From Loxodes magnus (taxonomy: Eukaryota > Ciliophora > Karyorelictea > Loxodida > Loxodidae), in NCBI GenBank assembly GCA_946699065.1, contig CAMPDV010000096.1, positions 434,001-498,000 on the forward strand: DNA of 64,000 nt, read 5' to 3'. Of this stretch, positions 1 through 64,000 are shown piece by piece (the stretch's first letter is position 1; every line of letters begins with the position of its first letter). The translations under genes and the position numbers were made by a program. The notes under the pieces were generated by a model. The model saw only the letters and a list, made by a program, of their open reading frames with translations. It made no database searches and was not told where the DNA came from.

Positions 1-561
1 TCTAGCAGTTTAGTTACTAGTCTATTCATTTCTTTCTAATACCTAAATAAAAAATTACTGAATAGATAGATTATTGAATTCCTTTTATTCCATTTCTTCC
101 AAAAGTCGATTAATTTATATAAGCTTCCTGAAAGGAAGTGCTTCATCCAATTTCTAACTAGCATTTTGGTCTTAATTTTTTTTATCTTTTGATGTGTTTT
201 TAAGCATCTGACTGACTTTTTGACTTAGTTTTTAGCTATCCAAAGTACTCTTACATGAAAGAGAACTAGACAACTATATTTGATCTGTTAAAAAGGAATT
301 AATTTTCTATTTGTTTAAGTTCAATTGTGATTTGGTCTACTTTTTTTCCATGCCAAGACTTGAACTTATTAGTTAAAAATCTGTTTTTTTAGAAGTATTA
401 GAACTCTATACATTTTAGCTTCCTTTTAACTTATTATAAAGATCCTAAGTTTTAAGAGAGCTTGTACTGTGTATCTAGTTTATTTGTGAAACGGTTTAGT
501 TTTTAAGACTCTACTTGTATTATTTTCATTTGCTGGATAAATTCTCAGATAAGCTTGTCAT
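1..561 (-). CDS. Partial hypothetical protein, runs off the left edge
   Basis: Seen: read as TAA/TAG=Gln and TGA=Trp, the minus strand from the ATG at 561 stays open for 187 codons to the window edge. The product is rich in Lys, Gln, Ser and acidic residues (starts MTSLSENLSSKWKQ; later LIQINRLLEEMEQKEF), with a coiled-coil-like stretch near the visible end and no recognisable domain. The amino-acid balance, with good Asp/Glu content, differs from translations of nearby intergenic DNA, which is the main support for coding. In-frame ATGs at 630 and 642 and an open frame further upstream leave the true N-terminus undecided; a short intron may lie in between. The C-terminus is outside the window. 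Function unknown. Confidence 0.65.
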
Positions 562-2650
562 CTATATTTTCACTCTAAGTTTTAATTAAAAATGTAGTTT
601 ATTTTACAGCCACTTAAATTAAATTTCCATACCTCTACTCATTTAACTGCTATAGCTCTATTATTTGCCTTTTCTTAATTCAAGTTAGCTTTTTTACTTA
701 TACTGTAATAATAAATTTTTAGATTTAATAGTTTACTTTCAGTGAAAACAGAGCAAAATGTAAGGCTTATATGTATAATCTCAATATTATGATAGACATA
801 GTCACTTTTACCTACTTTTCCCTTAATTTAAGCATAGGCAAAATAATAAATCAATAAGACTTGAAATATCTAAACATCAAGTATTAGAGCTCTTCCTAAT
901 TTGCTTAAAATGCTATAAGTTCTTCTTACCTTTACAAAACTTTATCGCTTTTGTACTATTTTTACTCAAACTCTAATTAATATAATTATAGGAAGTGGTC
1001 TTAAGGAATAACTACTGTTATAAAAAATAAAAGTATTTTTTGAATTGAAATAGTAAGTTTAAAATTTAGATAAGATAAGGCTATGAGGAAATTGATCCTA
1101 TTTAATATATTAAAAATTTAAAAAAGTAAAAGGAAATCTAAAATTATCTAAAATTAACTTAGCATTATATTTTTATTCAAAGCTAAATAGTCTAAACTCA
1201 ACGAAAAAGCTAATAATCAAGTAAAATCTTCAAATCAATCGCTTTTCTCTAATATGTAAGGATAATTTAATATAAATGACAAATCTTAAAGTTTGCATAA
1301 CTAATTGAAACAAAAGAAAAACAAAAAATTGATTTTTCAAATATTTTTATAAGATTTGTATAGTGAAATGAGACTGCAAGCGAATTAAATTAATATTATA
1401 AACTTGGTAAAAGTTAAAAAACAATCTTAGCAAGATTTTTAATTTAAATGGATTAATTTATTATGGTAGATACTTGCTTACAATAAACTTAGTTAAATTG
1501 AATACTCGAAAGTTATCAAGCAAAAACTAGGCATATAAAACAATATAGCTAATTTTAAAGCAGATTATTAAGCTTAGATTAATGGGAATATAATATTTAA
1601 TGTAATAAGAGTAAGTTTTAAAGTAAGTGAAATTAAATTAATAATAGTAAAACTAAAGGAAATAAAAAGAAATAGTAAAAGTGAGAAGTTTGGGGAAAAG
1701 TAGTATAGTTCAATTTATTAACTAATAACTTTGCTATATAATATTGAAAAATTATAAATTTACTACAAAAAGTAAATATTAGTAAAATAATTATAACAAT
1801 ATATGAAAAAGGAATAAAGCATTAAATATTAAATTTCTTAAACTTTAGAATACAAAAACTAGTTTAAATCCTTCTAAATTAAATATCAATTAGGTATTTA
1901 ATTTAGTTATAGCAATAAGTGTTCTTTTCATCAGATTAACTTTATTATCTTAGTATCAGCTTTTCATCTTAGGTTATTTCAGTTAGAACATATTCTTTTA
2001 TACCTCATAGCATAATAAATGATATCTATCATATCAGAGTGAAATTTAATGGTAATGTAAATAAGCAAATGTAAGATAGAGATGTGAAGAAATTAGGAAA
2101 AAGAGCAAATATTTACTTTTGTATTCAGATTATTAGGCTAATAAAACTAATACGTTAATATTAACTTTATATAATGATATTTTCATTTAGTATATTACAA
2201 GATAATTCAAGCTAGTAGGTAAAAATAGGTTGATTTACTAACTTCTATCATTAAAATGAAGAGTATTGATCATATTATATAAAATATTATATTATAATAT
2301 TTTATAATTTAATTATCTTATAAAAGTTAATTTTACCTGATTTATGTTGTAAATTAGAAATTAGAAGTTTTATTTCTATCATCCTAGATATCATTAGTCT
2401 AAGGTATGTTTTCTAAATTCTTGACACTGTATAGTCTCTTCAAACTTTAAATAGCAGAAAGAGTAAAATATTAACCAAAACTTAATTATTTTTATAAGTC
2501 TGCACTTGCTTAACTTTATTTAGTATTATAAGCTCTGAATGTAGTTTACCATAATAGTAGATGGAAAATAAATCTAAAAACACTAAAATTTCAAAGAAGA
2601 AATAAAAGGTTTAAAGGAATTGAATTTTTCTTAGATCAACATATTTTTAA
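562..2650. other. AT-rich stretch, no confident gene
   Basis: Apart from a possible 5' extension of the left-edge gene (to about 650, perhaps further), I see no gene, tRNA or obvious repeat. Composition is almost pure A/T, with long runs of alternating A and T words. All frames are fairly open under the reassigned code, so openness alone means little here. Confidence 0.5.
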
Positions 2651-3552
2651 ATGTTTGAAACCCTTTTATACTGAATATTCGGAATCATTTTCCTTCTCCT
2701 TTTATTTTTGTGAATATTCTAGAACAATATCCTCTATATTCCCCGACCTCCTGGAATGCCAGCTACAACTTTAGATAACCCTTAGTTTTATAAAAATCCC
2801 TTGGAAAGGAAGATGATTTATAAAGATCTTAAAATCAAAACTCCGGATAATGAATCTTTACATGCCTGACTAGTTTTGTCGAAAAGAGATCCTAAAAAAG
2901 TGGCGACAATTTTGTTTTTTCAAGAAAATGCAGGTAACATGGGATTACGCATGGATAATATATAAATGTTTAATGAGATGGGTTTCAACGTTCTAATAGT
3001 TTCATACAGAGGTTATGATACATCAACTGGCTAACCTACCGAAAAAGGCTTGAAAATAGACTCTCAGGCAGCTCTTGATTGACTAATCAATTGCTAGGAT
3101 ATTGATCCTAATTAAATAATTGTATTTGGAAGATCTCTGGGTGGCGCAGTTTCAATCAATTTAGTAGCAGAAAACTAGAATTTACCTAATGTAAAAGGAC
3201 TCATTCTAGAAAACACTTTTACTTCTATTTCTGATATGGTTGATGCTGTTTTTAAGTGACTGTCCATATTCAAGTCTCTTATTCTAAGAATTAAATGGAA
3301 TTCAATTGAGTCAATATAGAAGATTAAAACTCCTATAATGTTTATTTCTGGAAGAAAGGACGAGCTAGTTCCCCCGGTCCAAATGGACAAATTGCATTTA
3401 GCTGCAAAAAATGCTAAGTTTATAGAATGGGTATTTTTATAATATTATAGTATGCTGTCTAAGACGGAGATCACAACAGAACTTGGCATGTGGAAATGGA
3501 AAATTACAGCAATAGAATCGCCGCCTTTGTTGAAAAAGTACTTTATTCTTAA
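2651..3552 (+). CDS. ABHD13/BEM46-like alpha/beta hydrolase (active copy)
   Basis: A membrane-anchored serine hydrolase of the ABHD13/BEM46 family. Seen: one N-terminal hydrophobic segment (about residues 5-27), the motif NILYIPRPPG, an oxyanion-region sequence NAGNMG, the nucleophile elbow GRSLGG with Ser162, the acid in GRKDELVPP and the histidine in DGDHN. All three catalytic residues are present. TGA is Trp at several sites, including one aligned with TGG in the paralogue at 38794. A 20-nt intron (3431-3450) interrupts the gene just before the His motif; removing it restores the frame. Predicted length is 293 residues. The end is set at TAA TAA (3550-3555) because the paralogue ends at the aligned position with TAG TAA; no in-frame TGA follows for over 200 nt. 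The physiological substrate is not known. Confidence 0.9.
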
Positions 3553-7800: not shown

Positions 7801-9549
7801 TGAAGTAAAAATATACCAAAATGTGGTAAGAAAGTGATAAAAGATTTGAAGATATAGAAAAAAATTGTAAAATTAAGGTGGCTATAGAAAATAAAAAGAA
7901 AAATCCCAATGATAATAAGAATAATGCATAAGAAAAGTAGCTAGAGCAAGAATAAAATAAGAAAGAACCTTAGGCTTCTTAACCTTAAAAGCCTTATAGT
8001 ATTAATTTAAATTTAATTAAAAAAAGAAGTAAAGCTTTAAATGAAATTTAAGAGCAAAAGAAATTTGGGAGGAGCAATATAAAAAGAAGTATTAAAAAAA
8101 GGTTAACTATAACATCATAAAATACATGTGAAGATATTCCTGTCTCTAGCTCCATTTTAAGCTATAATAGTTTTGAGAACAATGATTAGATGATTCTTTC
8201 CCCTTTACCTAATTTTAAATTTAAACCCAAAGAATAGTAATAAATAAAGGAATTAAACGAGTAGAATGAGTAGAATGAGCAGAATGAGTAGAATGAGCAG
8301 ATTGAGCAAATTGAGCAAAATATATAAAACGAATAAATAGTAATGGTAAATAATCCAAAAAATTTACTTAAAATGAAAAAAGTAGAAAATGAAATGGGTA
8401 AAGATTTTAAGTCTAAATTACCTAAAAACTTAAAACTTTATATACGAAGAAACTATAAAGATATTGTTGATTAACTACCCCAAGAAAACATCGAAAGAAC
8501 AGAATCGACGTAAGATACATAAAGTGATATTAAAAGCCCAGAGTTAGAACTAAAAACATTTCTTCTAAATGATTAAGTTTATAAATATGATATCAATTCA
8601 AAAAAGAATGGATTAGGAAAATATAAAAGTTTTTAGGAGTAGATTTAGAAGAAGTAGCAAATAGATATAAATGAAGCCATTACTTTAACTCAATTTAGAC
8701 GAGAATGGTTTCAGCATTATATAAGTATACATGGTCATCCATGCAAACAAAAGCTTAAGTTTTGTTAACCTAAAGTAGGAATAATTCCTTTAGATGTACT
8801 TTAAACTGCATTAAAGATTGGAATTAAAAAAAATGAAACAGATCTTTACTGAATAGCTCATTAGTATCTTTCAGCACCTCTACCTAACGGTTGCACATAA
8901 AATGATAATCCAGGCTAGGATTTCTTCAAGACAGTTTTAAACTAGCAGAGAAGATACCGAGTGTCTCATTTTAAGAAACTAAAACCTAATGAAGTAGATC
9001 TATACATTAAAACAAATAGCTGACTATTTTTTTTAATTTCAAGAAACGTACAATTTTATTACAATTTTGCGACTCAGAAACTTTCTAAGCATCAATATTA
9101 ACGTGAAAATTGTGAAAAAGATGAGATTCAAGAAGTGATAATGGAATTTAGAGATAGAGGAATCAACTAGAATACAGTAAGTCATAATATAGATAATAAA
9201 AGCTTTAAAGATAAAGCAAAAAAATGAAGAAAGCTCACCAATTCCAAAGAAGCGAATTGTAAGAATTAGTAGTCCTATTAGCAAATCTTCCAACTTTGCT
9301 AAAATTTAAATTTCTCCTACAATGTAACTAAACCAAGTCAGTCAAAGAACCAGTAGATAATCCTGTAAGCCTTTTTCTAAAAATTATTCATCTCCAAATA
9401 TGTATACGTTAAATCCAATCTCAGCAAGATTGAATTCTAAATCTAGAGCAGAAAGAGCGTTGAAGGAAAGAATATTTATGGAGCCGAAAAAGTTTAATAC
9501 ATTGTATGACCAATTTACTAAAGCAGAAAACTTGTAAGAATCTAAATAA
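4893..9549 (+). CDS. Large Cep164-like WW-domain protein
   Basis: About 1546 residues. The N-terminus has the helix-plus-WW arrangement known from centrosomal protein Cep164: IGIHQEIDLPKYQWFL, then LPAAWTREQDPKGEVYFHH. Two more WW-like modules follow, at LPLPPNWEKRR...FFYIPH and FRHTLEGQSYWYN. A long, charged, low-complexity middle (about residues 500-1200) includes a 7 x 3-residue Asn/Ile-Glu-Gln repeat. The C-terminal part repeats a Cep164-type helix (IGIKKNETDLYWIAHQYL, APLP) and a partial WW-like segment (NVQFYYNFATQ). A 16-nt intron (9177-9192) switches the frame to a basic tail ending near KAENLQESK. Stop is TAA at 9547 or 9535; no TGA follows for at least 150 nt. Family knowledge: Cep164 acts at basal-body distal appendages. 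A basal-body role here is an inference from domain likeness. Confidence 0.8.
8256..8318 (+). repeat. In-frame 9-nt tandem repeat (Asn/Ile-Glu-Gln)
   Basis: Seven 9-nt units inside the WW-protein gene read AAC/AAT/ATT, GAG, then TAG, CAG or CAA. The third codon is TAG in three units, CAG in two and CAA in two, so TAG alternates with true Gln codons within a recently expanded repeat. This is local evidence that TAG is Gln. Confidence 0.9.
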
Positions 9550-13323: not shown

Positions 13324-14142
13324 TCAAGCCTTCTTCTCGATCTTTAAGCTTCCTTTTAAAAAAAGTTCTCTTATTCCTTTTGAACTAGTCCAGTCTTTCT
13401 TTTGCTTATCCATGTTTTAGGTCTTTATGAAATGTACGAAATTGTTTTTGGATATGTTTGGATTATTTTCGGTAAGTTTTTAAAGGAAGATGCTTTCAAT
13501 TATTTATAAATCTCAGTTTTAATCTCTGAATTCTGCGAAAGTTTCTTCGTTTCATGTAATTTACTAGGTTACATTATACCAATGCTTTTACCCATATATC
13601 AAAACGGGCAACTAAATAGCAACAATCTAAATGAGATCCTTTATGAATGCACTTATTACCTCCTTATCAACGAAAGGTCTTCTCTCACTATTGATAAAGA
13701 AGTCATATATATATTTGGATTTCTCTTTTGGACTACCAGTAGATAGCAAGATCACCATTAGATAAATATTCTTAATTTTGAATTCGTACTATATATCATT
13801 ATCGTAAGACTCTTCTGACATCTTTTTAATGCCTGGAGAATACTTTATATTTTTGGAAGAGGGATAATTTCTACTTAAGTTAAAGGATTTTTTCCTTTAA
13901 ACTACAAAACTTTTATATAAATCACTCAAAGGATTTTAGCTCTTAAAATCAGGTACTGTAAGTCTTAAATCTCTCAATATCTATTCTAGGCTACTTTGTA
14001 AAACATAAGGGTATCCCATATGATTCTAGAATATTTTGGTTATCTCACCAGGAGAAAGATTCTGATAGTTCAAACTTTTTTCGCTTTCCTCGAGCAAGCA
14101 ATACAAAGAATGCTTCTGATTCTTGCAAAAGTTGCATCCCAT
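13324..14142 (-). CDS. Short N-acylated MGC protein of unknown function
   Basis: 272 residues starting MGCNFCKNQK. A glycine at position 2 with nearby cysteines is the usual signal for N-myristoylation plus palmitoylation, so the product probably sits on the cytoplasmic face of a membrane. The body is mixed alpha-like (LSPGEITKIFQNHMGYPYV; VDKEVISAFIKDLIQIV). The C-terminal half carries TGA-encoded Trp in QITWNEET and RDQNWDLQ, followed by a basic end (LFLKGSLKIEKKA) and a TGA stop. No intron is needed. I recognise no family; an EF-hand-like or signalling-adaptor role would be a guess. A second, much longer MGC protein lies at 47751-50394; the two share only the acylation signal. Confidence 0.75.
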
Positions 14143-14599
14143 ATTTAGAAATTTATATCTTGCTGGTTTTATTTTCTAAGCAATTAAACGGTTAAAAGAA
14201 TAACTCTAATTACTAAATATTTAATAAATGTCAGCTAAATAAGTAAATACTTGCTATTTGCAACTCCATTCATATCTTGCTATATTAAATATTAACTAGC
14301 ATGCTTCTTATTTTTATGTAAGCAAGATACTTATTTACTATGCTATCTATCTCTTCATTATGCCTCTAAAGTATAACAATTTAATGTTTCATCGCTTTTA
14401 TATGTCTCTATGCTAGTGAGTATATTATTGGTTTCTTATAGTACTAAGGAATAAAAAAATGATAGTTTCTTATATTGAAAGCATCTATAATGTTAAAAGT
14501 AGAAGTTTATAGTGACAGTAAGGAAATATTAATGACTATGCTATTAAGTTTACTTACAGTTGGTAAAAGAATGGTTTGGTAAAGATATCATCAATAAAT
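14143..14599. other. Divergent promoter region
   Basis: Between the minus-strand MGC gene and the plus-strand TPR-like gene, so it should hold both promoters. AT-rich, no recognisable motif. An ATG at 14490 opens a coding-like stretch (MLKVEVYSD...) that could be a 5' exon of the next gene if two introns of about 31 and 34 nt are assumed; unproven. Confidence 0.45.
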
Positions 14600-15454
14600 A
14601 TGGAAACTGTTAATCTTTTTTATATTGAACAATCTATCAAAGTCAGGAAAAATAAGGTTGAAAGATTGGAGAATCATTTAAAACTTCTTAGACTATAATA
14701 GAACTCTTAAGAGAAAGCCTCTACTCTTTTCTAGTTGAGCAGAAATTTAGAGAAACTTGAAAAGTATGATGAAAGCTTGTAGACAGTTTTGCTTATAGAG
14801 CCTTACAATAACTTTTCAATGCTATGGAAGAAAATAAACGTTCTTTATAACTTGAACTAGTTTGATTTAGCATTGTTTGTTATATAGAACAACTAGCAGA
14901 TTAACCAGCAAGGAAATAATGATTACAGAGATTTGATAAGTTGACTTTATTACTACACTAATGATATTGTCAAAGCACTTTCTTATGCGACTCCAGCAAT
15001 AGCATATTGGGCAATAATTAACAATGACCTCAATATTAATGATCCTATTTTTTCAAATGCATAGAATTTTCAGAAGTAAATAGAGGAGTGAATTATATAT
15101 TAAATAAGAAACAGCCAAAAGTTAGATGATTCATAAGTTCAATCCTTAATATAATAGGAGCAAGATTTGTAATTTTCTATCAAGTTCTAGCCTAACAAGA
15201 AATAGCATTATTTGAAGTAACTATGGAGAATAAGATATGCTATTTGCTTAGTACTTCTATATCAAAATAAATTAGAGGAAACTAAATAAAAATTTCAACA
15301 ACTTATGGAAAATGGATTATGGAATTATGATATGAGTAACTTAAATGCTATTAAAGTGCTTAGAACTAAAATCTAGATATATGAAGGAAGAAAAGAAAGA
15401 ATAAACGCTTTATGGATTAGGAAATGCTTGCTAAAGGCTAGTGGTAAATAATGA
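14600..15454 (+). CDS. TPR-like helical protein
   Basis: About 283 residues, starting METVNLFYIEQSIKVRKN. Residues about 35-110 look like two or three tetratricopeptide-type helix pairs: LFQLSRNLEKLEKYDESLQT, VLLIEPYNNFSMLWKKINVL, then YNLNQFDLALFVIQ. The spacing of small and aromatic residues and the Pro after the second helix fit TPR. The rest is helical with an aromatic-rich patch (ISWLYYYTND, AIAYWAIINND). TPR repeats normally bind other proteins; the partner is unknown. The gene ends in tandem TAA TGA (15449-15454), so it does not tell which is the stop. An alternative 5' exon from 14490 is possible. Confidence 0.75.
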
Positions 15455-15542
15455 AAAATGTTTTATAATATTGATATAAAGCTCATACTATAAACTCTTA
15501 ATTGTATACTTACTTATTATCTTTAAAATTAGTTATATTAAT

Positions 15543-15845: not shown

Positions 15846-15866
15846 GGCATTATACTGAATATAGAA

Positions 15867-15944: not shown

Positions 15945-15972
15945 GATATTAAGATTTTTTTTAATTTAAAAA

Positions 15973-17226
15973 ATGAAAAACTTGAGATAGACATTTTAAT
16001 AAGTTGACGTTCATTAGTTAGTAGAATAGTTTTCTACTCCATTGGTATTAGTAGATGAAGAAGTAATAAGAGATAGATGTAAAAAGCTAAAATAATACTT
16101 CCCAGATGCTTAATTTTATTATGCTGTGAAAGCAAATTATAATCCTTGGATCCTCTAGATTATACTTTCAGAAGGATTTGGAGTGGATGCAGTGAGTCCT
16201 AGAGAAGTAGAGATTGCTTTGAGATTGAAATGTCTACCTAATAAAATAAGTTATGTAGAAAACAACATGACAGATGAGGATATGGAATTTTCAGTAAGTA
16301 AAGGAATTAATTTAATAATAGGCTCTTTATCTAGACTTTAGAAATATTGCTAGTATAAGCCTAACAGCAGTATTGGAATTAGAGTTAATGGAAGCATAGA
16401 AGCAGGTCATCATTAGAAAGTTATTACATCAGGTCCATTATCAAAGTTTGGTATTGATTATGATGACATTGAAAAGGCAGTTCTTTTAGCTGCTAATTAT
16501 AACGTAAAAATTGAAACAGTTCAACAACATATTGGATCTGGTATGCTTGATCCTGAACCCATTTTGAGAGCAGCTTAAGCTTTGATGCAGCAAATTAAAA
16601 AGATGCCTGATGTTAAGCATATAGATTTTGGAGGAGGTTTTGGAATCCCATATTAGCCTACTTAAAATCCATTGGATATTGAAAAGTTAAGCGTTAACTT
16701 TTTAAAAAATTTTGAAGAATTCAAGTAGCAAGAAAATAGAAATTTCACCTACGCATTTGAACCAGGGAGGTTTATAATTGCAGAAAGTTCAGCTCTTTTA
16801 GCAAGAGTAAATACTAAAAAAGTAAATACTTAAGGTAGAACATTTTTAGGAACTGATTCAGGATTTAATCATTTAATACGACCTGCAATGTATGGCAGCT
16901 ATCATCATATAATAAACCTAACTTATTAGCTTAAAAGATAATAAGAATCATAAGAGGATATTTTATATGATATCTGTGGAAATTTATGTGAAAGTGCTGA
17001 TTTTTTTGGAAGAGAACGAAAATTACCTGAAACAAACGAAAATGACATATTAGCCATAATGGATGTAGGAGCTTATGGTCTTTCAATGGCTTCTGACTAT
17101 AACTTAAGAGGATTTCCAGCCGAAATTTTGGTTAAAGAGGGAAAATTCCAACTTATTCGCGAAAGATAGAGTTTCGAAGATATGATGATAAATTTCAAAT
17201 TCAATTTCGAAAAGGAAAACTCTTAA
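15973..17226 (+). CDS. lysA: Diaminopimelate decarboxylase
   Basis: A PLP enzyme (417 residues) that decarboxylates meso-diaminopimelate to L-lysine, the last step of the DAP lysine pathway. Seen: PLP lysine in YYAVKANYN (Lys53), HIGSGM, the glycine-rich phosphate loop [20 protein letters not shown], the substrate-site sequence [13 protein letters not shown], the catalytic cysteine region [12 protein letters not shown] and [12 protein letters not shown]. The RPAMYG and [14 protein letters not shown] pattern separates it from ornithine decarboxylases. There are no introns. The conserved C-terminus (IRERQSFEDMM) is followed after 13 residues by TAA at 17224-17226; the next in-frame TGA is at 17707, so TAA is very probably the stop. 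A DAP-pathway enzyme is unusual in a ciliate; bacterial transfer is possible but not shown by this window. Confidence 0.93.
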
Positions 17227-20819: not shown

Positions 20820-21771
20820 AAAGTATTAGCTTTGAAAATTGATAGAAGCTAAATTAGATAATTTTAAAGGATAAGATTATCAAGCTAATTATTGGAAGTA
20901 CTATTAGCAATCATTTGGGAACAATATGATGATAATTTAGGGCTTTTTATGTAAAATGGTAATTGTTAAATGCTCTTTACTGAGTAAATAATCTACTATA
21001 GTACTGCTAAATAGAGCTAAAGTGTATTTATTAAATTAAATAGCCATTAGTTAGAATAATAAGCAATAGAAAGGCTTAGGAATATATTTGAAAATGGAGA
21101 ATACTCATTAAGCTATTAAATCTAGTATTAAATAAAGATAGGTTTTAAATTATTAATTGATAATAAGATATCTACTAGCTATTATTCCCTCTAGTTAAAT
21201 AAAGACTAATATCTTGACAATGGTATAATAATAAGCATAAGCATCGTACTTTACTTAATATGTATTAAGTTTTATCTCAAAGCAATACTATAATTCTCTT
21301 TCTAGTCCAACCACTTCCAAAGCAGTGGATTAATCTTTTAATATAAGATAAATTGCTTAATTTAGATTAATTTAGTTCATTATATGCTTAGCTTTAGAAA
21401 TTGCTTAATAAAGTAGAATCTTCAATAAAGTACTTTATTTACTTTCTATTTAAGTATCTAAATATCTATCTACTAATTCAAAAGCTTTAGGATAAAATCT
21501 CATAATAAGCATTTAGTTCTCATTCTACATCAAGATTACATTAACTCTATTTCAACCTTATACTCCAGCATATCCAATGATTAAGTAAAAAGAAGTTAAA
21601 AAAGGTAAATATAGTGAAAGCATAAAAAGCTAGGCAAAAGCTAAATAAGAACTTAGTTTGTGCAGATGATATAAGATAAGCTAGATATGAAGCTTAAGAA
21701 AGATGCAGTTTGGTATTATATGTTTATATATTTGGATTTTCAAATCAATTTTTAAGGAATAACTTATAAAA
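20820..21771. other. Divergent intergenic region
   Basis: Separates a minus-strand and a plus-strand gene and should contain both promoters. A long open frame exists on the plus strand around 21000-21600, but its translation is hydrophobic and nearly free of acidic residues, as expected of noncoding AT-rich DNA. Confidence 0.45.
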
Positions 21772-29115: not shown

Positions 29116-29829
29116 ATGAAATAATTCAACTTAGTTATGTATTTAATTAATAGTCCTCTTTGAAGTAAATTTGTAATCTGCCTCAAAACACTTTTTAAAT
29201 GAATTTTTATTCGTATTTATCATTAGAGTCTAAGTGATAATTTTTTAAAAGCTTTACACATAATTAATCATAATATAAGATAATAAAATACCTCTAACTA
29301 TGAAAACATTTTTATAAAAACATGCAGATTAATAAGAAACTTATTTTAAAGTCAATTATGATAGTTTTACCTTAGTTCTTTTAAATTTATTAAAACCTGA
29401 ATGTTGGAAAAATCAAATAAATATAGCACAAACAACATATTATGTAATGTTAGTCATAACTTTGTGCTAAATAAGGTTAATTAAAGTTATAAATGGTAGT
29501 TAGATTCTATTCCTATTTAGTTAAAATTGCAACGAATAAGAAAATTTGTTTAGCTTTGAAAATAATAAAGTGTATGTTAAAGGCAAGTAAGTAGCTTAAA
29601 GAGACGTATTTTTAACATTAGAAATGAGATTAAAACATAAATGATAGTGATTGAGTTATTTGGCATAGATGGAAAGTACGACATTAAATTAGAATTTATG
29701 GTTTGAAAATTAAAAGATCTCTAAAATTAAATTCATTTATAAATGAATAAATAAGCAATATAATTAGCATTCTACATCAATTACTTTAATTTTCATCTGT
29801 TATGAAATTAAGAAACCTGTGTAAAATAC
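29116..29829. other. Intergenic gap between converging genes
   Basis: AT-rich, 3' flanks of the Lys/Gln-rich gene and the Myb gene. Nothing recognised. Confidence 0.5.
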
Positions 29830-39713: not shown

Positions 39714-40003
39714 TAACACATACTTTAATTTTAAAAATTTTGAATTCTTAAATGTAATTTTCTATCTAATAGCTCACTCTTATTTAGTCTGAGTTAAATA
39801 GGAAAAGAATCTTACTGAATAAATAAACAAGTTTGTCATAACTATGAGATAAAGTGAATCTTAAGGGTATTGGATTTCACTTGCTTATAATATACTCATA
39901 TAATATGAGTAAAGCAAAAATGAGATATATAATACCACTATGGTGGTTTAAACCTTGTATTTATAATAATATAATAAAGATATTTCTGTTTATCAACATT
40001 AAC

Positions 40004-40714
40004 TCAATTTTCTTCAGCATCGGCAGACCACATGATAAGATTGTCTCTCAAAAGTTGTAAAATATTACTAGACTCTTGATACAAATCTTCAGACAATGAT
40101 TCGGCTTCTGCCAATCCTTCGTCATAAGCTGCTTTTGCCATACTGCAAGCCTTTTCAGGATCAGATAAAACTTCGAAATGAAAAACAGAAAAATTAAGAG
40201 CGAGTCCCAGTCTTAAAGGATGAGCAGGTGTCAATTCTTATTATGCTACTTTAGTTGCTTCATTATAGGCTTGTAATGCCTTTTCTCCAACTTCTGCATG
40301 CTTTTCTCCTTAAGCATATTCAGCAACATATCTATAGTAATCTCCTTTCATTTTGAAATAAAATATCTTTTCATCAACCTCTTTTGCAGCAGGTATTAGT
40401 TTGGTATCCAAAAGCTTCATTACATCGCTGTTAATCTTATCCATCTCGCTCTCAACTTTCTTCTGCATTTAATCAATTAATCTTAGTGATTATTCCTCTC
40501 CTTTTCTTTCTGCTCGATGACGTACAGAATGGAGCGCTCGCCAAGATGCACGCCTAGTTCCTATGCTATTTTTGAAAGCGGAACTTAGCCAAGATCTTTC
40601 TTCAGAAGAAAGAGACCCTAAGTCTACTACTTTTTTCATGAAGTCAACCATGTCGTCATATCTCTCAGCATGGAGAGCAACTTTAGCAAGCAATAACAAT
40701 CCTTCGCGCTCCAT
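40004..40714 (-). CDS. 14-3-3 phosphopeptide-binding protein
   Basis: 236 residues, a near full-length 14-3-3 (usual length about 245). Seen: start [43 protein letters not shown] (family: LSxEERNLLSVAYKN), the core segments [14 protein letters not shown] and [14 protein letters not shown], then [20 protein letters not shown] and an acidic tail DAEEN followed by TGA. The family dimerises and binds phosphoserine/threonine motifs in the cytosol. One block, [19 protein letters not shown], keeps the family Arg/Lys pattern of the third and fourth helices. There are no introns. This is one of the clearest cases where TGA acts as the stop, because the tail length matches the family. Confidence 0.95.
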
Positions 40715-41995: not shown

Positions 41996-44203
41996 TCAAG
42001 TCTACTTTTCTCTTTCTTCTTCTGCAGCGTTCGCAATAACTTGCTTCAAATTGTCCCAGTTAATGCTAAAACGCTTTCCTTTTGCTATTTTGCCTATTTG
42101 GCCTTGCTTCAAATTACTAGGACTTCCAGGAGGAGTCAGTTCTTACTCTTATTGAGCTTCCATTACAATCCCTAACTCTCCTTTCATAGCCTTTCTTTCT
42201 TAATTTTCTTTGTCAATGTTTTGCATTTTCTCAAATAAAGAGGTTTGAAGTTAAGGCTTAATATGCTTCAAATTTCCATCTAATTCCTTTCTTAATTCTT
42301 ATCCTAATCTTTAGTAAAGACCACAAGCTAACTCTACGCATGTCATTCTGATATCCTGATTTGGATGAGAGAAACAGGGAAGAATCAACCTTTAGAAAAC
42401 ATCTCTCCAATCCCATTGCTTCACTCCAAATTCTTAAGTAAGATGTAGTAGAACCTCTAAACGAGAAAGAATTAATCTCCAAGGTTGCTTTTCTGGAGAG
42501 TCTTCTGAAGGATTGCATATTTGCATGATATTATCAACTAAAGGTTTTATCTGAAGAAGTTCATGTCTAAACAAAGAAATCAAAGTATGCATCGTGACGT
42601 CACGAGCTCTATAGTTTAGTTCTGCTATTTTCTCCATTAAAATTGGAATAAAAGGTTTGAAATATTTGTTCACTGTTTTTGGACCAATTTTTGAATTAAA
42701 GATAGGAGGTTACATAGCTGTGATGAGCATTCTGAGTCCGAGAAAATAAATTAAGAGTAATTTATCTTGGCAAGCAATAAGACTAATTTCCATTGCTGCT
42801 CTAAATAAAGGTCTAGTATCTTTTTAATATTTTTCAATTAAAGGACTTTCTAAAAATTGGAGAAAGGCCAAGCAAGCAGCTTCTCTGTGTCTCCAGTTAT
42901 CGCTCTATAATGCACTCCATAATCTTACACCACAAGTAATTAAAATTCCTTTAGATTATGCCCATTTTAATTTTTCTACCTCTGAAATAGTAAGTTTTCC
43001 TCCTGCTTATGCTAATTTAGGTCTTAAATATGCTTCTAAGTCTCTATCACCTTCATTAAAGTCATAGGGATCATTTTCTACAACTTTGACGACTTGCTAA
43101 GTTTTAGTAGTTCGAATAACAGTATGAGGAGGCTCCCTTTCCCTTTACTTCTTCATATCTTCTAATTATTTTCTTCTTTCTAGTTCTTCCAAATATTTTC
43201 TATGCTTTTCCATTTCATCTTCTTTTTCTTTTCTCCTTCTTTCTGCTTCTAATCTTTATTCTTCCATAAGCTGTTAAACAAATGCCATGTGTTAGGCTGA
43301 TGGTTTTTCTAAAGCTATCATTCTCTCATATCTTTTAGTCTCATAAAGAGCGTCTATAGCATCTCTCGTTTATCTCATGCCAGAAAGCTTCTTCTTTAAC
43401 TCAGTTGCTGCTTCAAAATCTTCTCTGGAAAGTACTACTGAAAGTTCTCTCTTGATTTGTAGAATTTTCTAGCCAATCTCAAATAAAGTCTTAATATCCT
43501 TAGAAAGTTATTTTAAAGCTCCAAAATCTTCCATAGCATATGCTTTTGTCATCTTTTAATCCAATTCTTCTAGCGTTTCTCTTGTTTCTTCATCTATTGG
43601 AGCGTATTTATATGAATTATGATCTTCATTAGATCAGACTACTGTCTCTAAAGGTACTCCTATAGTTAAAAGTAATCTATCTACGTTATCTCTTTAAGAC
43701 CCAGGAACTTAATTCTTTAAATTGAAATTTCCAACTTATCTTCCTCATACTTTAAAGGTTCCAACTGAAACCTAGCCATGAGGATTTTAAGATGTTTTTT
43801 ATGGTCCTTTTAAGAATAAGAGCTTTATGTAACTTCCAATTCCATTACTTGGAATTTACTTATGAATAGCTCCAATTTCTTTTTATGTAGCTACTAAATT
43901 CCAATTCACATCCAAAAAACTGCCATAAAGACCATCTCCCAAATATACTTCCAATAAAGGAATTGTTCTATCAGGCTTAGTACTAACTAATACATGCTAT
44001 ATTTCAGCCCTCGCATCCAGTCTCAATATAATTTCTTAAGGATATGTCACAAATCTTCCTGCCTCTCAACTCATAGGAGTAGCCTTCTCACTTTAGGGTA
44101 AAAGAGATGCCAATGTTTTATCAGCCTCACTCGATGTGGCTACAACGCTATATCCAATTCACTCAAAATCGCCTGTAAAGAATTCAGATGCTTTCTTAAA
44201 CAT
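41996..44203 (-). CDS. CEP104: CEP104 / crescerin-related ciliary tip protein
   Basis: About 735 residues. The N-terminus (MFKKASEFFTGDFERIGYSV) starts a jelly-roll-like domain (about 1-200), with AEIQHVLVSTKPDRTIPLLE and GSYIKLLFLKGP. A charged coiled coil follows (about 230-420: RRRKEKEDEMEKHRKYLEEL). Then comes a TOG/HEAT array (about 440-680: HREAACLAFLQFLE, YFKPFIPILMEKIAELNYRA, ARDVTMHTLISLFRHELL). The gene ends soon after KGKRFSINWDNLKQVIA, at TAG (42004-42002) or TGA (41998-41996). Family: CEP104 sits at the tips of ciliary microtubules and its TOG domain binds tubulin. The zinc-finger array that follows the TOG domain in animal CEP104 is missing. There are no introns; TGA is Trp in MSWEAGRF and elsewhere. 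Confidence 0.9.
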
Positions 44204-46367: not shown

Positions 46368-47750
46368 TTTTGCTAGGTTGTATGCTAAATAATATTTATT
46401 AATGAATAATAAAAAGGAAATATAAACACTTTGAATTTACCAATCATCTGAATTGATAAGGGATCTAATATAAATAGTAAAAGCTCTAGTTGCTGTTATA
46501 AAAAAGGTACATGAGTTAACGATATTATTCATTAATGCTTGAAGGATATATTAATTTACATGATTTTTAAATTTAATTAAAGAAAGACTTGCAGCTAGAA
46601 AAAGTGTGAGATAATTTTTTTTGATAGATTACTTTATTAACTCTACTGTACAAGAAATTAAATATTTATAAAGGAAATTTAATTAATTTATCTAGGCACA
46701 TTTAGTAATCCTCATTCCAATTATTTTATGGATATTTATCCTTTTAAATTTAATAATACATTAAAGTTTATTTGGAAATAAATGTTAAAAGACTATGCGC
46801 ATTATTAAGATTATTGTCAGATTCTTATAGTGTAACATTGATTAGAATTCGAAGTAATGTAATTAATTAATATACGAAGTCTTATTTAACTTTTAATGAT
46901 ATCTTCTTAGATTTAACATCTAAAGAAGATAAGAAAAAGGATATTAATTAAGATACATATTGCTATTTTGTTTACTTATTGTAAGTCTATAATACTTAGT
47001 TTAGATACCTTGTATTATCTATCATCTAGCTATTTTCTATTAAGTACTCTGTAATTAACAAAGTATTACTCTATTAGATTGACTCTTCATTCTTCTTTTG
47101 AATCTCATTTATTATATAACTATGATGCTGAGTATGTTTCTGGAATAGGTAGAATTGTAGATATAGAAGTGAAAAAGTAAAGGACAAATATAGCATTTAA
47201 AGCTAGGAAGTAAAACATGTTTTCCTAGCCTGATAACTAAGTGATAAATGTACTTGAAATATATAAGTTCATTTGGCAAAATTCTATCACTATAATAAAC
47301 TATAAAGAACGCTATTATTCAAAGAGACTATTATGAAGGAAATGAATAATAATTTATATGGATATTTTAATTGAGGTAATTAAAGGAATTTATTAAGAAA
47401 ATGAATATACTTTTATATGCTTACTTATAGTATTAAGTCTATCACCTAAATTATTTTATGTCTAAATATAAATTTGATTACTAATATTTTTGCCTTATTC
47501 CTTCTTATAATTAAAAACCTCTTTAGTGATGTTTTGCTAGATGAATTGTTGGATTTTTAAAAAATATGAATGAAAGTGAATGTCTAATACAATTTATTGA
47601 TAATGTTTATTTACAGAAAAAAGTATTTGGATACTAAATTTGTGAATATTTTAGTAAATAGAAATGAAATAGTCACTGGATATAAAGCAAAGATAAAGTG
47701 AAAATAAGTAAGATGAAAAAATAATGTAAGAGATCATATAATAAACAATA
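46368..47750. other. AT-rich intergenic DNA
   Basis: No confident gene, RNA or repeat. Downstream flank of the large MGC gene. Confidence 0.5.
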
Positions 47751-50394
47751 TTAAAGCTTCATATTCGAATCGGTCGAATTCCTTCTAGACATATTTCTGC
47801 TAACTACCTATTATAAATAATCTTACATTTAAAAATTTAGGGACTCTTTGCTTTGCTTCATGTTCTTTGTTTTGCTACTTAACTCCTTTCTTTATGATAT
47901 CAGAAAATTAATCATTCATAGTTCTTTTATTAAGTTAGGGAGTGTGATAAATTAGTTTTGGAGTGAGTAAAGGAGAAGGAATGGCATCATATTTTAACTT
48001 AGCAGCTGTGTTCATAGATAGAGGAGATCTATCATTGTTTTCATATGTTAAATTCACATTTTGACTACTTTGTCTACAATGGGATACTTATTGGAAATAA
48101 GTAAGCCTTTACTTCTAATCTTCAGGAAAAGAATTTTATATTTTTCTTGGTATTTTGCTAAGTTATAATGACATTGTTAAATTTTTATAGTTTTACTTCT
48201 CTTTTCTTTCCTATTATTCTTAAGTTTTGTCATTACTCAAACCAAAAGGATTAGCATTAATCTTTGAAGGCTATTATTATTATTGTTCAATTTAATCTAT
48301 TTAAGCATTGCTTTTTCCATTCTAATTTTCTTATTTCTTATTTTTTTTATCGCCATTAGGAATTATTTTAACCCGCATGCTTTTATTTAAATTATTTACC
48401 TCTTTTTCATTGCTGATTTCATTTAACTAATGCTTTTTTCTTTATTTTGATTATTATTCTTCTAATTATTTTTTTAGAGTAAAATCTAGTCCTAATCCAT
48501 TTTTCTCATTTATAGAAATTCTTCATTATTTTTAATCTCCTAAATCTATAGATTTTTTAGGTTTTTATTCTATCATTTGAGACTAAGAGTTTTATATACT
48601 GCTTACAGAGCATTAAGTTTAAATCTCTGACATTTTTGATTAGATCTATGATTGATCATTTTAATTCTTCTTCACACATTTAGCTAAGCTTGATTTCTTA
48701 ACTGGTAAAGGAGATAATCCCCTTGGATTATTTATGTGCTTTAATTTAACTGGAGATGAAGCAATAGATGATGCTATAGATGGTTTCTTGTACCTTGTAA
48801 CTTCTTTAGATTACTCACTACCTTCTATACTACTTTTTAAACTTCCACAATCGGAATTTTTTTGGTTTCTTCTATTCATAAAGAAAAAGTCACCTAAGTC
48901 TTTTTACTTTTGAGAAATGTTTAATTAATTTGAGGATCTCTTGCTATTAAAGGATTCTTTATAGCTGTCTTTTGCCTCATTCTTTTTACCTTCAGAACTG
49001 CAGTTTAAAGTTAAATTTTTTGGATGCTAAGATCTTCCAATCACTGGTAACGATAATTAAGCTTCTTCTAAATCATTTTAATTTTGTTTTTTTTTCCTCT
49101 AAAAGCTATCTAAACTCTTTTCTTTGTGCTTTGTTGATGATTTCCTACTTCTAACCTCTCTTTAATCTTTCTATACATAAGATTAATTGGCAAATGAATT
49201 TTCATTTTCAGAATCATCCATTTGCTTACTCTTACTTTCCTTCTTGTGTTACCTTATGATTTCTAGTTTATTTAAAGAGTTGCTATGCATTGTTTTGTTT
49301 AGCTTAGTAGGATTTGAGATACTTAGTTCAGAGGCTTACTTTGACATGATTGTCATTTTTCTCTAAAATGAAGGAAATTTCGTGACAGATTTCTCTGAAC
49401 TAGCTTCATTCTCATCAAAAGTGTTCTAGGTAGCTAAATTTTCATGTCCATTTAGCTTTTGCTAATTTAATTGATAAAGTTAAATCTTTTTGCTGAACAT
49501 CAAGTTAGTCGTTCAGTCTTTTATATTTATTAGATAGATCTTTTTATTCTCTCCTATTAGAAAGTTAGCCTTCAGGTGCTTTATTTCTTTCTGGTTATCA
49601 AAAAGAATTCGACTAAAAGATTTGACAAAGAATTTAAGATAAATGTCTATTTCTTAATACCCGACTAATTAGCTCTGATTATAATCTTATTCCATTGCAA
49701 ATCGACTAGGAATGGTATATTCATTTTTAACTTAATCCTACTAGGCAAGTTTAAAAATAGCTCGTTTAGTTTTATCTTCTTGAATGCATTAAAGTATTTG
49801 GTTGAGCGTCTGCATTCTTTCTGCGCTTTCTTCTTAATGCTGCCTATTTTTCCTCTATATAAAAATTTTATCTATTTCAATCTCTTCTTCGCTATCCTTT
49901 ATTCTAGTCTGAAACCTTGTTCTTAGCAAAGAAGTCACTTTTTTTCTAGGTTTTACGAATTTCTAGAAGACACAAGGTATAGCTTGAAGTTTACAATAAT
50001 CTCAAGCATTTAAGGCGTTCTCTCAGCTCATAAAGGGTCAGCAAATATCAGTACTTTATGATTAAATAGCAATCTTCAAAATAACAGCAGGTCATGGTCT
50101 ATTTTTCAATTCATATTTCTTGAAAAGGCCTCTAATCTCAGACTCTGTAATGCTTTTAATTATTAGTTAGTCATCAGGATTGGAATAAAAAGACAAGGGT
50201 TATTTAATATCAATTCCAAATGTAAAAGTACGAGGAATTTTAATTTAAATGTAATCCTAAGTTAGCTTTTTTAGGTATATCTAGTAAAGCAGCGTAAAAA
50301 AACTGAGCTCTGTGTATTTAGATAATTCAATTTACTTTTTTTCGATTTGAAAGAGAACATCGCTTTGCTTTAATTTAGAACATCCACAACCCAT
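47751..50394 (-). CDS. Large N-acylated MGC protein of unknown function
   Basis: 874 residues, start MGCGCSKLKQSDVLFQIEKK, a strong myristoylation/palmitoylation signal. The first 190 residues look folded: YTELSFFTLLYQIYLKKL, then ITESEIRGLFKKYELKNRPW, where TGA encodes four Trp within about 40 residues (NRPW, CWPFMSW, LNAWDY). The remainder is charged and disordered-like, with basic blocks (RQHKKESKSKQ), a TM-free Gln-rich part and Ser/Thr-Pro sites (SPLSMN, SPLLTPKLIYHTP). A 19-nt intron (47808-47826) precedes a short tail VVSRNMSRRNSTDSNMKL ending in TAA (47753-47751); RRNSTDS resembles a basophilic kinase site. It is probably peripheral to the plasma membrane or cortex. No known family. 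Confidence 0.8.
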
Positions 50395-56663: not shown

Positions 56664-57566
56664 TCAACATCCTGGTGGGTAATACTGTTGAGGAGGGTAT
56701 TGTTGGGGTGGATATTATTAATATCCGGCTTGTGGTGGATATCCTGGAGCAGGTGCTGTTTAGCCTGGAGGATATGCGGGTGGATATTATTATTAAGGAT
56801 AGCCAGTTGGTTGCTATCCATAACCAGCTGGAGGTGGTGCATAACCAGTTGGTGGTGGTGCATAACCAGTTGGTTGCTGTCCATAACCAGTTGGAGGTGG
56901 TGCATAACCAGTTGGTTGCTGTCCATAACCAGTTGGAGGTGGTGCATAACCAGTTGGAGGAGCATAGCCAGTTGGAGGAGCATAACCAGTTGGAGGTGCA
57001 TAGCCAGTTGGTGGATATCCAGCGGGTGGGTATCCAGCAGGCGGATATCCAGCAGGTGGATATCCAGCAGGTGGATATCCAGCAGGTGGATATCCAGCGG
57101 GTGCTTGCTATCCAATTACTACAGTTAGAGGAGCTCCTTATCCTGTTGTTTATCCTGTTGGTGCTTTGCTCTAATAGCCACCATCTGGCATAAATTTCAT
57201 TATAATTCTTACTTATCCTGCGCTCTTTCCTTTATAAGTAACTGGGAACCATTCTTCATGTGTTGAATTCTATAAAACCGTTGATAGAGGAATTTATCCT
57301 TCTGCAATAGGATCATCAGCTGTTGCTTCATCCTTATCATAAAGATTAACTTGTAAATAGTCTTCGCATGTTCTTCTGAAGCTGAGTTAATCTGACCATT
57401 ATGGAAATTTGCCACCAGAATGATGTACACCTGTTCTCTATCTTTGAGCACCACAAGAAACAATACAATAAGGATCCATTCTTCCAAAAGTATCTGTATC
57501 TCGAGTTAATTTAGCTGCCACTGGAGAGACTTACAATTATCCAGGCCTATTCCAAGCTGCTTACAT
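56664..57566 (-). CDS. C2-domain protein with GYPP repeat tail
   Basis: 300 residues. A single C2 domain (about residues 8-125): [29 protein letters not shown], then [34 protein letters not shown] and [18 protein letters not shown]. The Asp residues in [12 protein letters not shown] and [10 protein letters not shown] are the calcium ligands of the family. After position 150 come repeats: PPAGY in 15-nt units, then PTGYAPP and PTGYGQQ units, ending QQYYPPGC and TGA. C2 domains bind phospholipids, often with calcium; Gly-Tyr-Pro-Pro tails occur in annexin XI, synexin and penta-EF proteins and favour self-association. No intron. Start at ATG 57566. Confidence 0.9.
56800..57110. repeat. Tandem repeats encoding GYPP/PTGY units
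   Basis: The plus strand shows 15-nt units of the ggatatccagcaggt type and longer units built on cataaccagttggaggtggt, matching the protein repeats of the C2 gene. Unit sequence lacks stops in most frames on both strands, which creates long spurious ORFs over the gene. Confidence 0.9.
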
Positions 57567-58138
57567 ATTTATTATAAATATCTCATTCAAAAATAAAAGA
57601 CTTTTTTAATTTATTTCATAAATAGCTTATTTTACTTATTACACATTACTTAAAATATCTCTACCCTATAATAAGAAATAAATCTATTAATCAGAAAATA
57701 TCCAAAAATAATATATTCTTATAAATTACTTTCCTTATTATTTATATCATTAAGTTTTCTTCTAACTAGCAAGAACACTTTTGTATTATCACTTATTTTA
57801 TTTATAAGCAACTGCTCACTTTTTTATTAGATATTTAGTTAGGCGTAGCTGAAGTAAATGTATTTTTCATAGTTGTATTTCTAAATTAAGCTAGAGTAAT
57901 TATTATTTTCAAATTACCGCTTAGTATTGAAATAATATTTTACTTGTTCTTATATCTAATTATATGTTATTACTATTTAAAGAGATCTGTATAGAGTAAC
58001 TAAGAGAACACAAAGTACATTAATTTAATCATTTGTGACTAATCTATAATCATATGCTTTGTCTTTTGTTATTCTCAACTTGTTTACTTTAAATGTCTTT
58101 ACTTATACTTAATTCTATTATTAAGTGTCTAATTAAAA
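57567..58138. other. Divergent promoter region
   Basis: Between the C2 gene (minus) and the next plus-strand gene. AT-rich; nothing recognised beyond position. Confidence 0.5.
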
Positions 58139-58891
58139 ATGCAATAGAAGCAAATTCCTTTAACTACTTTCCGATAGACTGCTTCTCAGATTCTAAGTCC
58201 ATACACAATTTCTCTCTAAGCTCATCCTAAGTAAATAAGCTTTTTGCAGGATAGTATTAAAGTATAAACATAAAAATTGAATGATGAGCTTTAAAAATTT
58301 AGAGTGATGAAATCTCCTTCAGCTAAAGACTATTATGATAGAGTAAAGAATATTAGTTATAAAGGTTAGAAAGAATTGGAGGAAGATCTAGATATCAAGA
58401 AAAATGAAAATGCGTTTCAAAAACCCTAATGGCCTAATCATTTTAACTCTAATTACGATGAGAACTTAATAAAGAAACAGGAAGAAGCGAAAAACAAGTT
58501 TTCCACATAAATTCCTATAACTTTGAACTCTTACAAAACTTATGAAGTAAAGCAATAGAAGAAATACATATGATAAGATCCTTCTTAATAAAAGCAATCA
58601 GTGTTTCCTAGTTGACTAAATGATCCTATCTTATAATAAACTCAAATAAACAGTAGTGTCTCTAACTAGAACTCAACTAGAGAAAATCTTACTCCTTATT
58701 CTGTTTACGATAATTTATATGGAGAAACTCATAAGTAGAAACCAATTCCTCTTGTAGTTAAAAACGAAGATTTTAGAAAGAAGTTTGAATACTAAAAATT
58801 CAATTTGAATAAGCAAATCAAGAAGAGGAAGAAAATGCTCAAAAACATCAGCGAAGGCTTGCCAACTGTTGTAGATATAAACGAGTTATGA
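58139..58891 (+). CDS. Hypothetical protein, basic and Gln-rich
   Basis: 250 residues, start MQQKQIPLTTFRQTASQIL, end TVVDINEL-TGA. The sequence is charged and mostly polar with recurring Tyr-Asp motifs (SAKDYYDRVKNISYKG, TPYSVYDNLYGE) and a basic C-terminal helix (KFNLNKQIKKRKKMLKN). No signal peptide, membrane segment or known domain. Two TGA-encoded tryptophans (KKYIWQDPS and FPSWLNDP) and many TAA/TAG glutamines. No introns. The YDxLY-type motif resembles the spacer in the CTFxP protein at 21772 but is too short to claim kinship. Function unknown. Confidence 0.75.
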
Positions 58892-61746: not shown

Positions 61747-62787
61747 ATGGGTTCTTCATGTAGTGGTAAAGTTAGAAAAGAATAAGATGTTGATGAAGCT
61801 GCGTAAGTTTAGAAAGAAAGCTTCAATAATTAAAAAAGACCCCCTGCGCTTAATATAAATAGCAAATGTAATTATCATAATAATTCTATTAACGGCTATA
61901 ACACTGGGTGCACCTTTGGATCTGTTTCTAAGCATTCTAATAAATAAGCATTTGATTTTTTGGGAAATGAAAGTACATTGGTTCATAGAAAAAATCCTAA
62001 GATAAAAATTAGTATAAATATAGGGGAAGGTCCTCATGGTAAAGTCTATGAGTGCTTAAATTAAGAAACTGGAGAAATTTGTGCTATCAAAATATTTGAA
62101 AGCAAAAATGCATCTTCTCGCTAAACTTAAGACAATGGAAATAATAAGAAAAATGAATTAGAATAAGCTGGAAAGGAAGATAGTAAGGAAAATTAAAATA
62201 TAGTTAGTGGAATTTTTTAAATAAAGGAAATATTAGATTTAAGGAATGTAAATATAATAAAATACTTGTGAGTTGACTAAACAAATCATTAGGTATTGAT
62301 GTAGTATATGGAGGGTAGATCTGTCAAAGATCTACTTAAAAAATTCGGAAGATTGGACTTAAAGATAATAGCTAAATACATAAAATAGGCTTTTATGGGC
62401 CTTCAATTTCTTCACACGCATAATGTAATGCACGGAAATTTGAAATGCTCCAATCTGCTTGTAGACACTAAGGGAAACATAAAACTATGTGATTTTTTCA
62501 ATGAGAGAGATTCTTAAAAACAGAAGCAAGAACTTGAAAGTTAAGATATTAAATAAATGGGAGCAACTATTATCGAAATGCTAACTGGCACCTATCCCAG
62601 TTTATCACAGACAATTGATTTATAATTTTTAAACTAGCAATGGAAGGATTTTATAAACACATGTCTCGAAAGCGCAATAAACATATCATAATTACTAGAG
62701 CACGAAATAATGAAAAATGTGTAAATACCAGAAATGATATAGAAAGGAACATCACCTATTGTTTTGGTTAATTAGAATCCAAACTAA
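61747..62787 (+). CDS. N-acylated pseudokinase (protein kinase fold)
   Basis: 346 residues, start MGSSCSGKVRK, a myristoylation signal with Cys5 for palmitoylation. The kinase domain begins near residue 85: glycine loop IGEGPHGKVYE, ATP lysine Lys115 in CAIKIF, a hinge YMEGRSVKDLL, and a STE/MAPKKK-like helix MGLQFLHTHNVMHGN. The catalytic HRD is HGN (229-231), with Asn where the catalytic Asp should be. The DFG is DFF (249-251), and the activation segment with APE is almost absent before ATIIEMLTGTYPS. Lys115 and the magnesium-loop Asn (CSN) remain, so nucleotide binding is possible but phosphotransfer unlikely. It probably acts as a membrane-bound scaffold. The stop is taken as TAA at 62785-62787 (TAG at 62773 also possible); no TGA for about 200 nt. 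Confidence 0.85.
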
Positions 62788-64000
62788 ATTAATTTGTTTA
62801 TATAAAGCAATACATTTATTATTAACCTTTATCAGCTTTCTTACTTTACATCATTGCTTCAAAATAAAATTCATGCTTCTCAAAAAGAACCAAGTTTAAC
62901 TATTCATACATCCTTGGCTTATAATTTATTACCACATTATAAGTCCCTTTTTGGATTACAGAATCATAAGAAAATTAACTTTACTCTTATTCAAATATTC
63001 TGAAATTAAGAGTAAGAATTTAACAGGGAGAAGCTTCAATATTAGAAGTGAAGCAAATTATAAAGAAGCTATACAGATATAGAAATAATAGAAACCCCAA
63101 TCTTGTTATTATTATTTATTATTACATATTAATATTTAGTTTATTTCCTTATAAAAGAAATCCATAAGCAAATTTTATGAGCTAATCAAGTAATTATCAA
63201 GATGAGAGTGAAAGAGAACCATGAATGAAAAAGTAGAAACTTTTAAATTAAGCATAACTTGCATGGTTATATACTAATAATTATGCAATTATGTCTCAAT
63301 ATTCCAAATGTTGAAACTCTTATTGTTTATTATTATTATATTTAATTTATTGTACAATAATGCAAATTATTAACTAGCATTTAATTAATTAAATATCTTG
63401 CATTAATATATACCTTTTGCTTGCTGTTTAATTTCTTTAACTTAGTCTTCATTTCTTTTCTTCATAAATAATTGAAATTCTTTTATTTTATAATTCACTA
63501 TGGAGAAAAATAAAAAATCATAAATTTTCTTTTAATTGAGCAACTTCAATTTTTAGACTTAAGAATATATCTTACGTATTTCTATTTATTTATAATATAC
63601 AAGTATTATTACTCTTAATATCAATTAAAAAGAAACTTCTTTTATTTTAAATGACTTAAATTCACTTCTTTGAGTTTATCAGTGTTGGCTAAGAAACTAA
63701 ATTAGATGGATAGTAGGATAATTCTATAAATGGATTATTATTTTTTTATTTAATAATAATCTCCTAGAAGCGCTATTTATAATGGCGATAGTTTATCAAA
63801 TGGTTATTTTAGGCAGTTCTATATTATCACAGAATTTTAACTAAGCTATTATTTGGGAAATTAAGATACTTTTGTATAGAAATAAAGTTGAAGATAGTCT
63901 TTTGGAGGAGTTGAAAAGTTTAGTTAATTTTAGTAAATTATTTGTAAGTAGGAATAGTAAAGTAAAAGGTATTAATATGTTTATTATTCAACTATTTATT
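62788..64000. other. AT-rich right end of the window
   Basis: No confident gene, tRNA or repeat to the edge. Short charged readings near 63000-63230 are not long enough to support a call. Confidence 0.45.

Follow-up and report, generated by a model that had tools for sequence, protein, structure and literature searches.

UAA as an apparent minor second stop codon beside UGA in the position-dependent genetic code of Loxodes magnus

In the karyorelict ciliates Parduczia and Loxodes, assigned to NCBI translation table 27, UAA and UAG (together UAR) encode glutamine while UGA is tryptophan inside genes and a stop near their 3′ ends. For Loxodes magnus, the published account describes a macronuclear assembly of 706 Mbp translated under table 27, in which no codon other than UGA is a stop (section 9). 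Its 3′ untranslated regions (UTRs) are short (median 41 bp), its introns have a modal length of 17 bp, and the codons ahead of stops are depleted in UGA and UAA, with no such depletion for UAG (PMC11441545). Condylostoma magnum (table 28) likewise reads all three codons as sense and terminates according to position; it uses all three as stops, and some of its transcripts have no stop other than UAA in reach (PMC4967479). Blastocrithidia (table 31) is described as reading UGA as tryptophan and UAA as both sense and stop, but its UAR codons encode glutamate. Seah, Singh and Swart reportedly proposed in 2022 that UAA may serve as the stop in a small fraction of karyorelict transcripts. Here, stop codon use is examined in a 64,000-nt stretch of L. 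magnus DNA (contig CAMPDV010000096.1, positions 434,001 to 498,000; hereafter the window) and in the genome around it (705,730,643 bp in 7,843 contigs). An earlier note on the window had proposed a Condylostoma-type code. The table 27 code itself is already published, and the window fits it with the addition of a minor UAA stop: UAA appears also to terminate 9 of 154 resolved protein ends and the window gene lysA, which encodes diaminopimelate decarboxylase. The pattern differs from that of C. magnum, since UGA dominates and none of the 154 ends has UAG alone, and from that of Blastocrithidia, since UAR means glutamine and UGA is the main stop.

Inside genes, all three codons are sense codons, and standard-code open reading frames are as uninformative in the window as the earlier note had held, the longest stop-to-stop stretch being just 633 nt under the standard code versus 1911 nt with TGA as the only stop. 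A self-trained codon-usage hidden Markov model (HMM) outlined 28 coding segments in the window, totalling 33,255 nt, in which TAA, TAG and TGA made up 5.3, 2.6 and 0.6% of codons and the canonical CAA, CAG and TGG 2.2, 0.8 and 0.5%; TAA and TAG together are thus commoner than CAA and CAG. When nine 14-3-3 genes were aligned, glutamine was the commonest alternative residue in the TAA and TAG columns (9 and 4), glutamine also occupies the reassigned-codon columns of the histone H4 alignment, and in-frame TAR codons lie within the full-length lysA. Within genes, TAA and TAG are glutamine. TGA is tryptophan, as the earlier note had also concluded; the evidence is thin by direct count, the single TGA column of the 14-3-3 alignment holding tryptophan, and many Ras and actin domain matches that span the full length and score above the curated cut-off also contain in-frame TGA. 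The standard ciliate code (table 6), with UAR as glutamine and UGA as a stop only, agrees with the glutamine codons and the TGA stops and would treat TGA-bearing genes as decayed; in view of those intact domains, the tryptophan column and the abundant tRNA-Trp cores described next, it is hardly credible. Separately, a TGA at window positions 55281-55283 (+) sits in a repeated zinc-binding-like motif (..KPA-TGA-MC..HYAK) and reads best as tryptophan.

The tRNA complement agrees with both sense assignments. A tRNA-Gln core pattern, allowing at most two mismatches, matched 392 places in the genome, against 9 for the reversed pattern. At least 100 of the matches are exact, all with anticodon UUA; these 100 listed ones are known to be UUA, and the others may include ordinary tRNA-Gln. 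The CUA form of the pattern gave no exact match. For tRNA-Trp, the core pattern gave 298 matches and its reverse 1; CCA is the anticodon of every one of the 100 listed. In 97 of these the 27:43 pair is mismatched, leaving a 4-bp anticodon stem, as read by eye from core matches rather than from whole tRNAs; an array on contig C67 contains 48 of them and one on C148 another 48, with a single core elsewhere on C148, and the other three listed cores, on C110, have five anticodon-stem pairs. A tRNA-Trp(CCA) with a 4-bp stem is a described means of reading UGA (PMC13092985) and has been noted in some trypanosomatids and ciliates. The two tandem tRNA-Trp(CCA) arrays span G000:C67:482309-491186 and G000:C148:157310-168712, with spacings of about 187 and 241 bases. 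Scans of 37 fetched loci for tRNAs turned up no suppressor tRNA. In a search with a general tRNA family model, 63 of the 42,786 first-look candidates were scored, the output giving scores without anticodons. The number of these candidates, many with the same score (for example on contig C103), points to tRNA genes in high copy number.

Termination was assessed at conserved protein ends, all stops being read from DNA. A neutral HMM, in which stop codons were scored as background, had been run on 20 arbitrary 10-kb stretches plus the window; TGA went up at coding ends, but the model was too noisy for the TAA excess expected. Because such noise would hide that excess, 156 ends from six families with conserved C-termini were used instead (H4, 14-3-3, the actin superfamily, the Ras superfamily, ornithine decarboxylase and the dynein light chain LC8). 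The members fetched were mostly the best-scoring: 20 of 96 actin superfamily matches, 80 of 150 listed Ras superfamily places, 20 of 53 other 14-3-3 matches plus the window copy, and 18 of 21 listed LC8 matches.

Overall, 145 of the 156 ends have TGA at the expected end or within nine codons of it, 9 have TAA only, none has TAG only, and two could not be called. TGA ends all nine H4 matches, all 14-3-3 copies (8/8 and 12/12 fetched, plus the window copy), all eight ornithine decarboxylases (one via TAA and seven further codons) and all 18 LC8 genes fetched (one via TAA and one codon). In 4 of the 21 14-3-3 genes, TAA stands none or one codon ahead of the TGA (L005, L008, L148, L150). Among the 20 actin superfamily genes, 17 end at TGA, two at TAA only and one was not called. 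Sixteen of the TGA codons immediately follow the last conserved residue and one comes eight codons after a TAG; the near-identical copies L038-L042 inflate this TGA count. Actin genes appear to be in high copy number, with 96 family matches, many of the same score, for instance on contigs C266, C437, C524, C707 and C711. The two TAA-only genes, presumably ARP1-like to judge from their KTF end, have TAA exactly at the conserved end, with the next in-frame TGA 22 and 39 codons beyond it and downstream translations unlike each other. The Ras superfamily contributed 72 TGA ends at or near the expected position, five of them running through CC-TAA or CC-TAA-X before the TGA, as well as seven TAA-only ends and one without a call. 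In the seven, TAA immediately follows the prenylation motif and no TGA occurs for at least 15 codons, the next lying 15 to more than 51 codons away (L098 could be followed for 27 codons only). TAA-only ends thus make up 7/79 in Ras (3.6-17.4%) and, over all families, 9/136 before and 9/154 after LC8 was included. The earlier note had UAA serving as a stop, which these ends and lysA appear to bear out for a minor share of genes; its broader idea that stop or sense depends on position is likewise upheld, TGA mostly and TAA in a minority being found at ends and both as sense codons inside genes.

The placement and surroundings of the TAA-only ends suggest that UAA is used as a stop there. In the Ras genes, TAA directly follows CNC, CSC and CLIF boxes, which we take to be prenylation motifs. 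Such boxes must be C-terminal. The CNC Rab that ends in TAA (L085, on contig C30) has a paralog ending in CNC-TGA (L071). GC content over 60 nt falls from 30.5% before to 18.3% after the seven Ras TAA codons, and similarly from 30.9 to 18.5% around 50 Ras TGA ends; published values for L. magnus are 33.5% for coding sequence and 18.6% for 3′ UTRs (PMC11441545). Within the final 20 codons of the TAA-only genes, in-frame TAA is absent (0/140) and TAG occurs five times (5/140), compared with 31/1000 for each codon in TGA-ended genes. TAA was also depleted ahead of TGA stops in the HMM sample (27/800 vs 233/4400). UAA therefore looks like a minor second stop in these sequences, with UAG as sense only.

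The release factor offers a possible basis for this asymmetry. The N domain of Loxodes eRF1 was read from L160, one of two copies on contig C196, and aligned to the yeast and human proteins; the copy at C196:19713 matched eRF1 in a PDB search and the other lies at 54613. A further eRF1_1 match, on contig C2, is presumably pelota. Loxodes eRF1 retains GTS, NIKS and the C and F of YxCxxxF and, counted by eye on the alignment, has alanine at human position 55 and phenylalanine at 125. In human eRF1, release by Y125F is listed as 100, 34 and 100% of wild type on UAA, UAG and UGA, and by E55Q as 75, 35 and 80% (PMC4698671, Table 1, quoting a private communication). By analogy with these mutants, A55 and F125 would weaken termination at UAG and spare UAA and UGA, which matches the ends found here and fits the published pattern, in which UGA and UAA are depleted ahead of stops and UAG is not. 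A limited literature search found no link between eRF1 and the code of Loxodes in print.

A Condylostoma-type code with three stops would account for UGA and UAA both occurring at ends, but predicts UAG ends as well. With UGA at 145, UAA alone at nine and UAG alone at none of the 154 resolved ends, a small sample, the earlier note's assignment does not survive. TAG also behaves as sense when beside a TGA stop, NQ-TGA in one paralog corresponding to N-TAG-TGA in the other (L106/L099) and CC-TGG-YV-TGA to CC-TAG-YV-TGA (L089/L080). Together with an eRF1 altered at two residues whose mutation lowers release at UAG, this makes a three-stop code very improbable. Instead, we consider it probable that UAR is glutamine and UGA tryptophan within genes, and that near the mRNA 3′ end UGA in most genes and UAA in a minority act as stops, UAG not. 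Near that end, eRF1 would outcompete the tRNAs, mostly at UGA and, in the minority of genes that end in it, at UAA, whereas termination at UAG was not detectable in the ends tested. Ribosomes would stop at the UAA of TAA-only genes; the abundant tRNA-Gln(UUA) would compete with eRF1 for the codon, and the outcome would depend on where the codon lies along the mRNA, perhaps on its proximity to the poly(A) tail. The fuller proposal, in which A55 and F125 cause the loss of UAG termination and the code is asymmetric (UGA and UAA each sense and stop, UAG sense only, with competition between tRNA-Gln(UUA) and eRF1 decided by mRNA position), seems to us evenly poised between right and wrong.

Several points weigh against a UAA stop or against its proposed cause. 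The ends counted are not independent, as they come from multi-copy families. In L085 and L124, removal of a possible intron would yield another TGA. The Rab2-like paralogs L088, L110 and L116 share CC-TAA-X-TGA with a variable X; that the TGA is kept after a variable codon suggests that TAA is read as glutamine two codons before the stop. In the HMM sample, TAG was depleted before TGA to the same degree as TAA, though not significantly (12/800 vs 104/4400), so the difference between UAA and UAG depends on the codons at protein ends and on the published depletion. Base composition also puts TAG in non-coding DNA at roughly a quarter of the frequency of TAA, which makes nine TAA against no TAG only suggestive. 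As for eRF1, human Y125F and E55Q were measured singly rather than combined, a release test of E55A was not found in the literature searched, and no single eRF1 substitution follows the codes (Swart 2016).

Under a strict table 27 code, as published for L. magnus, UGA would be the sole stop, and the TAA-only ends would be stop-loss changes from TGA to TAA, or gene-model errors, with UAA read through as glutamine to a later UGA. The change is a one-step transition, TGA holds the great majority of resolved ends, the Rab2-like genes behave as expected, and candidate tiny introns account for two window genes (Myb and Q-rich, below). Read-through, on the other hand, would bury the prenylation boxes under C-terminal extensions. 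The next TGA is far off at the Ras and ARP1-like ends and, after the lysA TAA at 17224, 160 codons downstream, and the DNA past the seven Ras TAA codons has the 18% GC of a 3′ UTR. Stop-loss should sometimes give other one-step sense codons in place of TGA, and none was seen among the resolved ends (two of the 156 were not called). Finally, 12 TAA-only ends, those of window genes among them, were checked for nearby GT..AG introns of 16-26 nt able to bring a TGA into frame, and 10 had none. That UGA is the sole stop is therefore unlikely in our view, and UAA as a minor second stop remains the reading adopted here.

In many genes of the window a TGA lies no more than a few codons from where the coding signal ends (Table 1), and the TGA ends listed in the earlier note for the 14-3-3, C2 and CTFxP-repeat genes were found at each. 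Its six TAA ends fared unevenly. The TAA of lysA and that of hydrolase 1, from which the next in-frame TGA is 74 codons away, fit as stops, and the one at 9547 perhaps does so as well (223 codons to the next TGA), in a gene absent from that note. The lysA product carries the Pfam domains PF02784/PF00278 and matches PDB 2p3e (E 1.7e-58); of the 426 query residues, matches extend as far as 411-414, and they come within about 10 residues of the end of the two best chains, and no nearby GT..AG intron of 16-26 nt helps. A tRNA-Ile gene (anticodon TAT) lies directly upstream of lysA at 15867-15939 (+), and the coding HMM ran across it.

For the Myb, Q-rich and large MGC genes, by comparison, a TGA is in reach. 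The TAA claimed for Myb is part of a GTAAGT that would form the 5′ splice site of a 17-nt candidate intron, and in the Q-rich gene TAA 32905 would be read as glutamine and TGA 32948 reached through two candidate introns, all splices being by eye. Both genes likely end at TGA via these putative tiny introns, but neither re-reading is proven: a chance intron likewise produced another TGA in 16 of the 50 controls with TGA ends, which makes removing introns weak evidence. Hydrolase 2 does have the TAG and TAA claimed for its end, with a TGA eight codons beyond also in reach. A kinase-like gene, recognised by eye at 61762-63099 (+), has an in-frame TGA close to its end.

Table 1. Genes of the window and their end codons (window coordinates; introns are candidates).
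Feature	Position	Strand	Details
Alpha/beta hydrolase 1	2741..3552	+	Pfam PF00561; candidate 20-nt intron 3431-3450; TAA 3550-3552 as stop
Unnamed-function gene	9115..9549	+	HMM segment 9115-9546; TAA 9547-9549 likely stop
MGCNFC gene	13324..14367	-	TGA stop 13326-13324
Gene ending TAA-TGA (15449-15454)	14477..15454	+	
lysA (diaminopimelate decarboxylase)	15946..17226	+	TAA 17224-17226; 5′ limit approximate; best TAA stop in window
CTFxP-repeat gene	21584..24318	+	TGA stop 24316-24318
Gene	27934..29115	+	TGA stop 29113-29115
Myb gene	29777..31107	-	Pfam PF00249; candidate 17-nt intron 29833-29817; TGA 29779-29777 after splicing
Q-rich gene	31869..32950	+	Candidate introns 32785-32800 (16 nt), 32911-32932 (22 nt); TGA 32948-32950
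Gene	38050..38598	+	TGA stop 38596-38598
Alpha/beta hydrolase 2	38899..39743	+	Candidate 17-nt intron 39595-39611; TAG 39711, TAA 39714, TGA 39741-39743
14-3-3	40004..40714	-	Five internal TAA; TGA stop 40006-40004
CEP104-like gene	41996..44197	-	Pfam PF21040; TGA stop 41998-41996
Large MGC gene	47734..50394	-	TGA stop 47736-47734, reached directly
C2 gene (name from the earlier note), PAGYPP-type repeats	56664..57566	-	TGA stop 56666-56664
Gene	58136..58891	+	TGA stop 58889-58891

If UAA is a real second stop in L. magnus, gene models built with UGA alone would wrongly extend the C-terminus of several percent of genes, and the mis-extended models would include Rab prenylation sites. Human mutants already show that residues 55 and 125 of eRF1 are important for UAG; Loxodes would then be a natural case of two eRF1 residues separating UAG from UAA and UGA.

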